Source: a virus. Taken from it: a DNA stretch of 25,264 bases. Position 1 is the stretch's first letter; each line of letters opens with the position of its first letter. The position numbers and the translations under genes were made by a program. The notes under the pieces are model-generated. The model made no database searches, was not told the DNA's origin, and was given only the letters and a program-made list of their open reading frames with translations. Location of the stretch: positions 1-25,264 of the IMG/VR virus record IMGVR_UViG_3300044641_000215; one strand, written 5' to 3'. Below are positions 4,717-21,270 of this stretch, one piece after another.

Positions 4717-6117
4717 ATGGCTGATAATATTTATGGCACTCAGTCTAATGCATCAATGCAAATACCAAGCCCTTATTCAGCAGAATTAGCGGCAATTCAA
4801 AGGCGTGAGCGTTTAGCGCAAGTTATGCAACAACAGGCTTTTCAGCCTCTTGAAATTAATAGCTATCAAGGTATTCAAGCCCCAATTTCTCCGTTGTCAG
4901 GCATTGCTAAAGCCTTACAGATGTATTTAGGCGCATCAGGTCAAGATCGTGCCGACGAAGCAAGAGCAGGCGTTGCTAAGAAAATGGAAACCGACACTCA
5001 AACTCAATTGGCTCGTTTGCTTGGGTCACAAGGTGCGCCAGCTGTGCCTGCAACACCGGCAACAATGGGTACGCCTGAAATACCAGGTAAACCGGCAACC
5101 TCATTTACGCCAATGGGTTCAGATTTTGAAGATAACCCAAATCTAAAAATGAGTATGGGTGAAGCACCGCAAGCAGGTCAACCGTTTGTTGCGCCTGGCG
5201 ATGTTGCCGTGCCTGCTATACCGACAATTCCAGCTGTTGCGGGAACGCCAGCGCAGCCAGGCAGACCAGCGCAACCCGCAAAACCACCAACGGAAGATGA
5301 ACAGCGCAAGATATATTCTGATTTTGTTGTAAGCGGTAATCCTCGATTGGCAAAATTGGGTGAAATTGGCTTACAAGAGTTGCGCTCGTCAGGCACAACT
5401 GACATTAAAAATTGGAAAGCCTCTAATTCAGGTTTGCCTTTCGACCAATGGTTAGCTAATCAAAATGCTCAAAAAAGCACACGAGTATCTGTCAATGTTC
5501 CTGTTAATACAGAAAAAGGTTATGGCGAGGTGTTTGCCAAAGGTATTGCGGACGATGATGTTAAGTTAAGAGCCATGGCAAACAAAACACCTTCACAAAT
5601 TCAGAACATTGAAAGTCAACGAGAATTGTTAGGTAGCGGAAATATCTTTACAGGCAAAGGCGCAGATTGGCAAAATGAACTTGCATCGTGGGCTACTTCA
5701 ATTGGAATTGGCGGCACTACAACTGCTGAAAAGGTTAAAAATACAACTGCTTTGTATGCAGACAGAGCAACTTCCACTTTAGATTCAATTGCAACTGCCG
5801 GACTTGGAACTGGTCAAGGATTTACAGACAAAGATTTGAAATTTTTGAAAGATGCAAAACTTGGAAACATTACATACACTAAAGAAAATCTAGAGCGTCA
5901 ATTAAACATTGAAGAAAAAATTGCTAGAGAAATTGCTAACAGATGGAATACAAGGCTCGGAGAATTACCAAAATCAGCATCAGGGCCAACAGGCGTAAGT
6001 CCGGTTAATTTGCCACCAACTAGAGCATCAACACCGCAAAGCCCTCCTGCTGGTTCGGGAGTAACGCAGCAGCAATGGAACGCAATGACTCCTGAGCAGA
6101 GGAAATTATGGCAATGA
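4717..6117 (+). CDS. Putative internal virion / ejection protein with Pro-Ala-rich linker
   Basis: A 466-aa protein. The N-terminus (about 1-100) is helical and Q/A-rich. Residues about 108-195 form a low-complexity linker of P, A, G and T with PxxPxxP spacing (APAVPATPAT, PGRPAQPAKPP). The C-terminal half (about 200-410) is mixed helical, with no enzymatic motif. The last residues read QQQWNAMTPEQRKLW, a pattern common at the end of phage internal proteins. No signal peptide or membrane span. Placement in the ejection-protein cluster suggests a protein packaged with DNA. This is inferred from context. Confidence 0.55.
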   Translation: MADNIYGTQSNASMQIPSPYSAELAAIQRRERLAQVMQQQAFQPLEINSYQGIQAPISPLSGIAKALQMYLGASGQDRADEARAGVAKKMETDTQTQLARLLGSQGAPAVPATPATMGTPEIPGKPATSFTPMGSDFEDNPNLKMSMGEAPQAGQPFVAPGDVAVPAIPTIPAVAGTPAQPGRPAQPAKPPTEDEQRKIYSDFVVSGNPRLAKLGEIGLQELRSSGTTDIKNWKASNSGLPFDQWLANQNAQKSTRVSVNVPVNTEKGYGEVFAKGIADDDVKLRAMANKTPSQIQNIESQRELLGSGNIFTGKGADWQNELASWATSIGIGGTTTAEKVKNTTALYADRATSTLDSIATAGLGTGQGFTDKDLKFLKDAKLGNITYTKENLERQLNIEEKIAREIANRWNTRLGELPKSASGPTGVSPVNLPPTRASTPQSPPAGSGVTQQQWNAMTPEQRKLWQ

Positions 6118-13048: not shown

Positions 13049-13254
13049 TTGTGTGCCTCAAGTGCGTAGAGAGCGGTATACAGATGCGGATGCGTTGTGT
13101 CGTTGAGCAGTACACCTTTATCCCCAATGTATCCTGTGGGCTTTAATTTAGCTAGATTGTCAGCAGCCTGGCGATACGCACAAGGGTTGTATTCAGCGTT
13201 GCAGCGACCACCGCAAGCCTCTTTAAACAGATGGATATAGTCGGCCTTGTTCAT
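13045..13254 (-). CDS. Small phage protein with cysteine cluster, unknown function
   Basis: A 69-aa protein with ATGA overlaps at both ends. Cysteines cluster near the N-terminus (ACGGRCNAEYNPCAYRQAAD, about 13-32), which could bind a metal or Fe-S cluster, although three cysteines alone do not define a known fold. The C-terminal half contains GYIGDKGVLLND. I do not recognise a family. Confidence 0.55.
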   Translation of the reverse strand: MNKADYIHLFKEACGGRCNAEYNPCAYRQAADNLAKLKPTGYIGDKGVLLNDTTHPHLYTALYALEAHK

Positions 13255-13523
13255 AAGCGCAGTCCAAACGGGTTATGAGCGTGTTTAACAACTAGGTTTT
13301 CGTAATTATCTGAAGATTCTGTAGCAGTCGGTGCTTGTCGAATAGTGACATAAACACAAGGTGAGCCACGCCTACCATCCCCACGTTTCTCGATCTTGTT
13401 GTTGCGCTGAAGTTTGGCAAGTTGAGTGTAGATGCTGATCTTTTCAAGGCCACAGTAATCAGCAATATCAACTGTTGTTTTAGGCTCGATGCAATACCGC
13501 AATATCTTTTGTTCTGTTGACAT
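13251..13523 (-). CDS. Winged-helix DNA-binding protein
   Basis: A 90-aa protein, first gene of the minus-strand operon. GGAG stands a few nt before the ATG at 13523. Residues about 3-48 have the pattern of a MarR/IclR-like winged helix: EQKILRYC helix, TTVDIADYCGLEKISIYTQL helix-turn-helix, then KLQRNNKIEKRGDGRRG as the wing. It is likely to bind DNA and may tune early genes or its own operon. Its promoter carries the same box as the plus-strand early promoters, so it is probably controlled by the repressor at 14077. Confidence 0.65.
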   Translation of the reverse strand: MSTEQKILRYCIEPKTTVDIADYCGLEKISIYTQLAKLQRNNKIEKRGDGRRGSPCVYVTIRQAPTATESSDNYENLVVKHAHNPFGLRL

Positions 13524-13543
13524 ATGTTCTCCATAAAAGCATC

Positions 13544-13572
13544 ACATTAAGCCATCTAAACACAATGCACAA
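13544..13572 (-). promoter_or_regulatory. Promoter and operator box of the minus-strand operon
   Basis: Read on the minus strand: TTGTGC as -35 (13572-13567), exactly 17 nt of spacer, TAATGT as -10 (13549-13544), then about 20 nt to the ATG at 13523. The spacer and -10 contain TGTTTAGATGGCTTAATGT (13562-13544), differing at two positions from the box at 16396 and three from that at 14337. The alignment with the other two promoters is gap-free. Function is inferred from this conservation. Confidence 0.6.
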
Positions 13573-13783
13573 GAGGTATTTATCTTAGTGATTACCCGTA
13601 CTTTTATTATTTGGACAATAGTATTCCCAAGGGTGGATAGCGTGTAGTTTCCCTACGCAGTCCAACTCGATCCATATTGTTTTATAACAGAACAATACCA
13701 ATCCTACCGGAGTTAATGTTCAATCGAGTTAGAGTCTTGTCCCACCGTGTTCTCTAATCTTGTGCAGTACCCATTTAAGTCTG
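13566..13783. other. Gene-free region with nested inverted repeats (possible origin or structured RNA)
   Basis: No credible gene lies in this part of the 553-nt gap 13524-14076. It contains an outer inverted repeat TGCACAAGA (13566-13574) / TCTTGTGCA (13758-13766); an inner pair AACTCGAT (13664-13671) / ATCGAGTT (13723-13730); and within that TATTGTT (13675-13681) / AACAATA (13691-13697). A smaller arm lies around 13636-13676 (TGGAT ... ATCCA). TTTAAGTCTG at 13774-13783 is the perfect complement of an arm at 13935-13944. Such nesting fits a replication origin, a structured RNA or a recombination site. Sequence alone does not decide. Confidence 0.4.
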
Positions 13784-13872
13784 CGTGGCTTGCTGTCGGG
13801 TGTAGACCAGCCAATCTTTCTTGAGTACGGGCGATTTAACCCTATTAGATAACGCTCTCTGACGGTTATCAA

Positions 13873-13950
13873 AAGAAAATAAAAAGCCGTTTAAATCTGC
13901 ATCTTGGTGAGAACCCCTAATTCGGGGCAAGACACAGACTTAAACGGCTT
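13873..13950 (-). terminator. Strong intrinsic terminator downstream of the repressor
   Basis: On the minus strand a 16-bp stem (13950-13935 with 13899-13884, one G-U pair) is followed by a 2x2 internal loop, a 5-bp stem (13932-13928 with 13906-13902) and a CCCC/GGGG apical stem. The T-rich run TTTTTATTTTCTTTT follows directly. The plus strand lacks a T run on its exit side, so termination is expected for leftward transcription from the repressor. Confidence 0.75.
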
Positions 13951-14030
13951 AGTTGTTTCTCACGACAACAAGTTAATTCTGCCACCGTCTTTCCGATGTG
14001 TCAAGGTCTAAAGCTAACCTGGTGAAACAC
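13873..14030 (-). ncRNA. Candidate structured RNA ending in an intrinsic terminator (minus strand)
   Basis: Transcribed leftward, this segment would fold into three successive hairpins. First, nested stems with ACCT/AGGT (14020-14017 with 14007-14004) inside GTGT/ACAC (14030-14027 with 14001-13998). Second, GTTGT/ACAAC (13969-13965 with 13956-13952), loop CGTGAGAA. Third, a long terminator hairpin. The loop GTGAGAA (13963-13957) is perfectly complementary to TTCTCAC (13913-13907) inside the third hairpin, a possible kissing interaction. It lies just after the repressor stop, so it may be the repressor mRNA's 3' end or a separate RNA; no clear own promoter is seen. Confidence 0.45.
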
Positions 14031-14076
14031 GACCCTTATCATTGTTTGTTTCATGCTTGCTAAAGGCTTAATCAGT

Positions 14077-14292
14077 CTAATGCAACTCAGGCCAAATTTG
14101 TTGCCAGTTGGGGATTTCTTTTCTTGACCATTTACCGTTTGATTTCTTTTCAAGCTCGGCAGCCAACAACACTAACTTATCGTCTGGCAAACCATTGTTG
14201 CGCCATTGCGATACAGCCGGTGGACTGACACGGCAGAGCTTGGCTACTGCAAACGTGCCACCTAATGTTTGGATGATTTCTGTTGTATTCAT
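14077..14292 (-). CDS. YdaS/Cro-like repressor
   Basis: A 71-aa protein. Residues about 13-36 (TFAVAKLCRVSPPAVSQWRN) form a Cro-type helix-turn-helix; IIQTLGG before it and LPDDKLVLLAAELE after it complete the YdaS-like domain (Cro-like toxins/antirepressors of lambdoid prophages). It faces the ERF operon divergently, the standard position of a phage repressor or Cro. No Shine-Dalgarno is visible and the variant box at 14292-14308 touches the start codon, so translation may be leaderless or from a very short leader. No peptidase domain is attached, so it is not a full CI. Repressor versus antirepressor is undecided. Confidence 0.75.
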   Translation of the reverse strand: MNTTEIIQTLGGTFAVAKLCRVSPPAVSQWRNNGLPDDKLVLLAAELEKKSNGKWSRKEIPNWQQIWPELH

Positions 14293-14308
14293 GTTAGATA
14301 GCTTAACA
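14292..14308. promoter_or_regulatory. Operator-like variant box at the repressor start
   Basis: TGTTAGATAGCTTAACA is a variant of the shared promoter box (one base shorter in the left part) and a better palindrome: TGTTA and TAACA arms around a 7-nt centre. It touches the last base of the repressor start codon (14290-14292 on the minus strand). Occupancy here would block the repressor's own expression, as expected of autoregulation. Inference from position and similarity. Confidence 0.5.
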
Positions 14309-14326: not shown

Positions 14327-14357
14327 TTGACTTATCTGTTTAGATACCTTAATATCT
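14327..14357 (+). promoter_or_regulatory. Early promoter and operator of the recombination operon
   Basis: TTGACT (14327-14332), a 17-nt spacer, and TAATAT (14350-14355) make a near-consensus sigma70 promoter. The box TGTTTAGATACCTTAATAT (14337-14355) covers the spacer and -10. It contains alternating half sites: TATCT (14334-14338 region), AGATA and TATCT. The leader downstream has a small hairpin (CTGAC 14363-14367 / GTCAG 14374-14378) and AGGTGCATAAATG at the start of the ERF gene. Confidence 0.75.
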
Positions 14358-16385: not shown

Positions 16386-16416
16386 ATGTTTTTATTGTTT
16401 AGATAGCTTAATATCT
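16386..16416 (+). promoter_or_regulatory. Second early promoter with the shared box
   Basis: The box TGTTTAGATAGCTTAATAT (16396-16414) differs from the ERF-promoter box at one position, and TAATAT (16409-16414) serves as -10. The -35 at 17 nt spacing is poor (ATGTTT, 16386-16391), unlike the other two promoters, so activity may need an activator or be weaker. The leader downstream contains a TGGC/GCCA hairpin and AAAAAAGGTACATAA before the ATG at 16460. A 12-codon frame from ATG 16421 ends in TAA right before that ATG. Confidence 0.6.
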
Positions 16417-19102: not shown

Positions 19103-19588
19103 ATGATTACTCAAGAATTGTTAAATCAAAATTTTTATTACAAAAATGGTGGTTTATATTGGATTTCAGATAGAAATTACAGAGCAAAAAAAGATCAAAA
19201 AGCTGGTAGTTTAGGCACAGGGCATCGTTATTGGCATATTCAAATAAAACAAAAAACAATAGCCGAACATAGAGCAATATTTTTAATGCATCACGGATAC
19301 TTGCCCAACTTTGTAGACCATATTGACAATAATGCGTTAAACAATAAAATTGAAAATTTAAGAGAATCAACTTGTTCGCAAAATCAATACAATTCAAGAG
19401 TAAGAAAAGATAGCCGATCAAAAATTAAAAATGTTAAATGGCATAAAGCTACGCAAAAATGGATGGTTTGCGTCAGAGTTAACAAAAAAGAAAAGTATTT
19501 TGGTATTTATGATGATATTGAATTAGCCGAGCTGGTGGCAACAGAAGTAAGAAACAAATACCATAAAGAATTTGCGAGGCATCAATGA
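19103..19588 (+). CDS. HNH homing-type endonuclease with AP2-like DNA-binding end
   Basis: A 161-aa protein. The HNH core lies at about 54-88: AEHRAIFLMHHGYLP, VDHIDNNALNNKIENLR, with the D-H pair at 72-73 and the downstream N residues. The C-terminal part (about 105-155), KIKNVKWHKATQKWMVCVRV then KYFGIYDDIELAEL, resembles the AP2 DNA-binding domain that phage HNH homing enzymes use. Its base composition is much more A/T-rich than its neighbours, a sign of mobility. Its stop overlaps the next start (ATGA). It is a paralogue of the gene at 20776. It may be a free-standing homing gene, since no intron core is visible. Confidence 0.85.
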   Translation: MITQELLNQNFYYKNGGLYWISDRNYRAKKDQKAGSLGTGHRYWHIQIKQKTIAEHRAIFLMHHGYLPNFVDHIDNNALNNKIENLRESTCSQNQYNSRVRKDSRSKIKNVKWHKATQKWMVCVRVNKKEKYFGIYDDIELAELVATEVRNKYHKEFARHQ

Positions 19589-20775: not shown

Positions 20776-21270
20776 ATGGATAAGTCTAATTTTATTCTTA
20801 CAAAAGAATTATTGCAAAAGCATTTTGAGTACAAAGATGGCAATTTGTATTGGAAAACCAAAGGTACGGGCATTTTACGAGAACGATCTGGTTGGGTTGA
20901 TGGGCTTGGATATGCTTGTATTGGGTTTAAAAGAAAAACGTACAAAGCGCACAGATTGATTTATTTGATGCACCACGGTTATTTGCCTAAGATTGTTGAC
21001 CACATTGATGGAAACCCTAAAAACAATCAAATTGCCAATTTGCGTGAAGCACAAATGATTGAAAACGTGTGGAATCAAAAGAAACGTAGTACAAACACAA
21101 CTGGCGTTAAAGGTATTAGTTACAGTAAAAAAGCCAAAAAATACACGGCTAGATGCATGAGTAACGGGGTTAGCTTTTTTATAGGTCAATTTGATAAACT
21201 TGAAGATGCAACCCAAAATTTAATGGCGTTTAGAAATAAAGCTCACGGTTCTTTTGCTAGACATGAATAG
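20776..21270 (+). CDS. Second HNH homing-type endonuclease, paralogue of the first
   Basis: A 164-aa protein with AAGGAG 7 nt before the ATG. HNH core at about 58-90: KAHRLIYLMHHGYLPKIVDH, then IDGNPKNNQIANLR. The C-terminal domain (about 108-160) has TTGVKGISYSKKAKKYTARC followed by FIGQFDKLEDATQ, the AP2-like DNA-binding motif. It shares layout and the ARH ending with the protein at 19103 (FARHQ there, FARHE here). It is less A/T-rich than that gene but still more so than its neighbours. It stands alone, with its own leader hairpin, and looks inserted between the DUF5856 and 21280 genes. Confidence 0.85.
   Translation: MDKSNFILTKELLQKHFEYKDGNLYWKTKGTGILRERSGWVDGLGYACIGFKRKTYKAHRLIYLMHHGYLPKIVDHIDGNPKNNQIANLREAQMIENVWNQKKRSTNTTGVKGISYSKKAKKYTARCMSNGVSFFIGQFDKLEDATQNLMAFRNKAHGSFARHE

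Follow-up and report, generated by a model that had tools for sequence, protein, structure and literature searches.

The self-cleaving pistol ribozyme pairs the loop of a 5' hairpin with the junction of the stem that follows, the pairing strand of that junction lying on the 5' side. Among phage regulators, CI of P4 and C4 of P1 and P7 are antisense small RNAs made from the immunity or early region. Lambda OOP and the P22 RNAs sar and sas are likewise phage antisense sRNAs of this region (PMC12197685). Covarying pairs between loops and junctions are a feature of GOLLD and ROOL, ornate RNAs of phages and prophages in which such pairs form intermolecular bridges (PMC12286853). ToxI, the RNA of a type III toxin-antitoxin system, is a 36-nt pseudoknot encoded in tandem repeats before its toxin gene, and phage PhiTE carries a pseudo-ToxI (PMC3475682).

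The locus described here lies in a 25,264-base virus record of IMG/VR (the window), which encodes a terminase, an ERF protein, an SSB and a lysozyme of the glycosyl hydrolase 108 type, and in which no tRNA or tmRNA was found. Two Manatee Spring phage genomes, MW202674 and MW202520, are the closest deposited ones reached through the RNA region and the adjoining repressor; their annotated genes include P22-like portal and coat proteins, and neither has an annotated integrase. The region studied is on the minus strand, between the gene for a 71-aa repressor (14077-14292, minus strand; P22_Cro, E = 2e-7, also YdaS-like) and the start, at 13523, of the next long open reading frame. An initial annotation, made from the letters of the window, had placed an undescribed structured RNA with a kissing loop directly downstream of the repressor, and both the position and the novelty hold: the RNA does follow the repressor gene on the minus strand, and a search of 13500-14110 against Rfam 15 (4227 families) returned no match at the gathering threshold and none at E<1. 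No description of it was found in the open-access literature. Judged by comparison among related sequences, this RNA, which we call T, is a real, previously uncatalogued phage RNA whose long-range helix is strongly supported, and its carriers are a family of freshwater phages.

Elsewhere in the window, an int-alpA RNA (RF02996; 19014-19080, plus strand) scores above its gathering threshold and adjoins, on the upstream side, an HNH endonuclease gene at 19103-19588. A second HNH-endonuclease-like gene (20776-21270, plus strand) resembles the first by eye.

Fold and covariation of the T RNA

The body of T runs on the minus strand from its predicted start at 13969 to the end of the terminator stem at 13884, as delimited by covariation and by a covariance model that scores it at 85.6 bits, the window copy itself being part of the training set. 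At its 5' end stands P1 (13969-13952), a hairpin of 5 bp in which GTTGT (13969-13965) pairs with ACAAC (13956-13952). Next comes the long stem P2, whose 23-nt arms (13950-13928 and 13906-13884) were delimited by covariation; it is capped by a 4-bp apical hairpin, CCCC-GAATTA-GGGG (13927-13914), recognized from allele comparison and folding, where other alleles have one or two such hairpins, and it is followed by a T-rich tail at 13883-13871. Stem and tail together make a predicted intrinsic terminator; a simple terminator scan that limited loops to 3-8 nt, a limit that excludes the T hairpin, reported none. Across the phage family the RNA is about 90-130 letters long.

The helix that sets T apart, K, joins the P1 loop GTGAGAA (13963-13957) to TTCTCAC (13913-13907). 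These two 7-mers are exact complements placed just as the initial annotation had them, and neither occurs elsewhere in the 25-kb window on either strand. Other parts of that description need amending. The terminator with its T-rich tail stands, with a stem of 23 bp and an apical hairpin in place of the 16 bp given; of the three successive hairpins the last two are retained, while the first (about 14020-14005) falls within another element, ahead of the predicted start. The kissing loop survives as a long-range pairing of 7 bp, not as a contact between two loops: TTCTCAC is a 7-nt bulge on the 3' side of P2, just below the apical hairpin. K is thus a loop-bulge pseudoknot, and the pairing may be intra- or intermolecular. 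In the minimum-free-energy fold of 13969-13879, P1 and the long hairpin form with both 7-mers unpaired (-43.5, z = -8.5, with none of 200 shuffles as low); the interval originally annotated gives z = -5.5.

Relatives were gathered by searching IMG/VR with the repressor, which yielded 80 loci, most with the same RNA region downstream, and by a promoter-pattern scan, which yielded 70 stretches, unrelated phages among them. A non-redundant set of 36 alleles was then chosen by promoter and long terminator hairpin only, pairing being no criterion. All but three of these have perfect loop-junction complementarity of at least 6 bp; two of the exceptions belong to type III (below), and the third, L082, only seemed to lack the pair because its reading began at a shifted start. 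Each allele's own loop and junction pair over 7.4 bp on average, as against 4.5 +/- 0.2 bp when the 36 are re-paired at random (maximum 5.4 in 10,000).

Thirty distinct alleles of type I, all from related phages, were aligned for covariation. In helix K 99% of cells are paired, and compensatory change in both 7-mers, which had been named beforehand as the decisive check, is found at six of the seven pairs (55 cells), with no one-sided change at all. The 210 cells comprise 208 Watson-Crick pairs, no G-U and two exceptions, both in outer positions, and they make up 13 different helices, so that the original view of the 7-nt match as something other than chance is borne out. Thirteen distinct K helices without intermediates are, as an alignment pattern, hard to explain otherwise. 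P1 and P2 behave similarly, with 94.7% and 96.4% of cells paired and two-sided changes at 3 of 5 and 12 of 23 pairs, respectively. Over the whole structure 121 cells are doubly changed, against 32 +/- 4 after shuffling, and none of 500 shuffles reaches the observed count, though kinship among the sequences inflates such shuffle controls. Sliding the partner by one column lowers pairing from 97% to 42-44%. With 86 G-U cells and only 11 A-C cells in this alignment, the RNA strand is identified as the minus strand. The fold of T into P1, P2 and the long-range K is thereby shown by comparison of alleles.

Beyond type I, members of type II (L098, L100, L065, L046 and MW202520) and of type III (L037, L041, L068 and L073) differ in sequence and keep the same plan, in which an upstream element pairs with the apical part of a long terminator hairpin; for type III the plan was read by eye from four sequences. 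The window and five further records with a model match each carry a single copy of T, which in the model-matched genomes adjoins a P22-Cro/YdaS-like repressor. On the bacterial side the model found nothing in 20 distant loci with repressor homologs, nor in four whole genomes; a search of 401 bacterial genomes around one of these also found nothing, and this search, which had no positive control, is weak.

Promoter and structured surroundings

Upstream of P1 lies a predicted sigma70-type promoter on the minus strand, with a -35 box TTGACA (14004-13999; 6/6 match), a 17-nt spacer and a -10 box CAGAAT (13981-13976). In all 16 contexts compared, several of them with unrelated upstream sequence, the end of the -10 box and the first P1 base are separated by exactly 6 nt; the -35 box is weak in some. 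It is this fixed distance that places the predicted start at the first P1 base, and T is likely an independent transcript from the predicted promoter. The initial annotation had offered a small regulatory RNA as one of three readings, and it is the one we favor, since a promoter-like element is held at a constant distance below several unrelated upstream sequences. Within the spacer lies an inverted repeat, CATCG-GAAAGA-CGGTG (13998-13983, minus strand), whose arms co-vary around a conserved center, GAAAGA. Other phages (L105, L109, L113, L139 and L154) have the same spacer-repeat design at sites that resemble promoters.

T does not stand alone. Between the repressor stop codon and the T promoter is element A (14067-14005, minus strand), a hairpin with a probable pseudoknot, whose helices pair GCCUUUA with UAAGGGU and, by eye, GAAAC with GUUUC; 19 sequences give two-sided changes at four predicted pairs, two of which lie in the promoter-spacer repeat. 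Element A is replaced by different sequence in L067, L081 and others, and is followed by extra sequence in L033, L061 and L072. Element B (13822-13621, minus strand), a separate structured RNA of about 200 nt, lies past the T terminator and ahead of the next operon; in 11 sequences 19 of its 43 predicted pairs show compensatory changes, and several IMG/VR phages share it, as does MW202674. The Rfam search of 13500-14110 matched neither element at E<1. Three T alleles (GTGAGAA, GTAGAAA and GTGGAAG) are each found with type I and with type II element B, which implies that T is exchanged as a module. In MW202674, the T and B region (4881-5377, minus strand; locus L178) is covered on the opposite strand by four annotated small hypothetical proteins, which are probably spurious genes.

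Near-identical TTTAGATAGCTTAA-like sites occur at 13547-13560, 14293-14306, 14339-14352 and 16398-16411, all at promoter regions: those at 14293 and 14339 fall in the divergent promoter region and that at 13547 precedes the downstream operon. By pattern they are candidate repressor operators. Loose matches to the pattern number 13 across the window where 8.2 are expected, a count not above chance. Neither pattern matching nor direct reading found such a site in the T promoter.

What T may do

Our preferred reading, to which as a whole we give a probability of about 0.6, is that T is a small-RNA gene of the phage, equipped with a promoter and an intrinsic terminator of its own. Transcription would start at the first base of P1, as predicted from the promoter position, leaving the RNA with its 5' end closed off in a duplex and with the terminator as its 3' end. 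K would lock P1 onto the top of the P2 rod to give a compact, nuclease-resistant RNA, which would be recognized by its shape, most likely by a phage or host protein, and not through base pairing with an mRNA; this protein-directed mode of action is a reasoned guess. Because candidate operators lie at the neighboring promoters and none in that of T, the RNA would be made independently of the repressor. It would also terminate transcripts of the repressor gene ahead of the next operon.

In a rival reading T is a cis element only, the 3' end of the repressor mRNA, where an unusually stable pseudoknotted terminator protects the message and insulates the next operon and the promoter is of minor account. 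T does directly follow the repressor gene on the same strand and has a T-rich end, and the flanking elements A and B are structured too; a role in mRNA stability, another of the initial readings, is possible. Yet the -10-like box has been kept 6 nt away while the sequence upstream was replaced several times, P1 begins exactly at the predicted start, which would be odd for a mere terminator, and an ordinary terminator would do without K and with a stem shorter than 23 bp. We therefore consider T unlikely to be a cis element only. The remaining initial reading, a sensor-type terminator or attenuator that toggles between terminated and read-through forms, draws on the fact that a structured element ending in a terminator lies upstream of an operon. 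It has fallen away almost entirely: no competing antiterminator fold is seen, the terminator fold dominates the ensemble, and K is compatible with P2, in no competition with the terminator stem.

By covariation alone, K inside a single molecule looks the same as K joining two copies, and a further alternative turns on this difference. If T formed homo-oligomers, each allele would recognize only itself, building dimers, rings or chains; the 13 self-complementary K alleles, strictly Watson-Crick save for two outer cells, would suit this, as would the intermolecular bridges made by covarying loop-junction pairs in GOLLD and ROOL (PMC12286853). In a coarse model of rigid A-form helices, however, the fraying of a single base pair is enough to accommodate an intramolecular K alongside P2; the idea that K is impossible within one molecule was accordingly dropped, and with the intramolecular form nearly strain-free, oligomers seem a rather poor bet. 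The allele of L126/L064, with P1 about 4 bp longer and P2 unchanged, counts against them too, although it strictly fits neither picture. An extension of the same idea, in which T is a minimal self-recognizing RNA whose loop and bulge pair between copies, so that alleles assemble with their own kind and allele turnover sets compatibility in co-infection, is more speculative still.

Antisense control of immunity in the manner of P4 CI or P1 C4, with the loop pairing to a phage mRNA leader, would fit both the adjoining repressor and a loop that varies as immunity specificities would. Over about 0.92 Mb flanking 109 phage loci, however, neither 7-mer has a co-varying partner (26% and 65% of permutations score as high), in the window the 7-mers occur in T only, and the loop is already paired in K. 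Since no partner follows the allele in these flanks, antisense action by the P1 loop is unlikely, and the antisense-immunity reading as a whole is very improbable. K acts as structure and not as a conserved seed. A special case of our main explanation is a decoy or antitoxin-like RNA that neutralizes a host RNA-binding defense protein, compare the pseudo-ToxI of phage PhiTE. Phage-encoded pseudoknots with such a function exist (PMC3475682), and quick allele change under a conserved shape would suit an arms race; against this, T has no tandem repeats, no Rfam RNA family matches it, and the scanned neighbors include no toxin or convincing defense gene. The proteins downstream of T gave no hits to Pfam or to the PADLOC toxin models in a sequence-level search, and that at 13251-13523 has a weak Csa3 match (E = 0.0015). 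A decoy role specifically is thus doubtful.

T among known RNAs

T makes a new RNA family, and the covariation support for its long-range helix is unusually strong for an RNA so small. Many IMG/VR phage contigs carry it, although Rfam has no entry for it and one deposited genome has small predicted genes annotated over it. With two more uncatalogued structured RNAs at the locus, the region after the repressor appears as an RNA-rich island.

T resembles P4 CI, P1/P7 C4, OOP, sar and sas in lying near a repressor and departs from them in having no co-varying antisense partner in the flanks. With the pistol ribozyme it shares a 5' hairpin loop that pairs with the junction of the following stem, whereas its pairing strand is on the 3' side and it ends in a 23-bp terminator; Rfam gives no match of T to pistol or to any other self-cleaving ribozyme. 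Type III antitoxins and pseudo-ToxI are small phage or plasmid pseudoknot RNAs that act on a protein by shape, as T is proposed to do, but T is a single long-stem unit with no tandem repeats and no toxin recognized nearby. GOLLD and ROOL are several times longer (GOLLD exceeds 800 nt) than T, which at about 90-130 nt ends in a terminator of its own and is without a match in Rfam; what unites them with T is that all are phage-borne noncoding RNAs of low sequence conservation with covarying loop-junction pairings.
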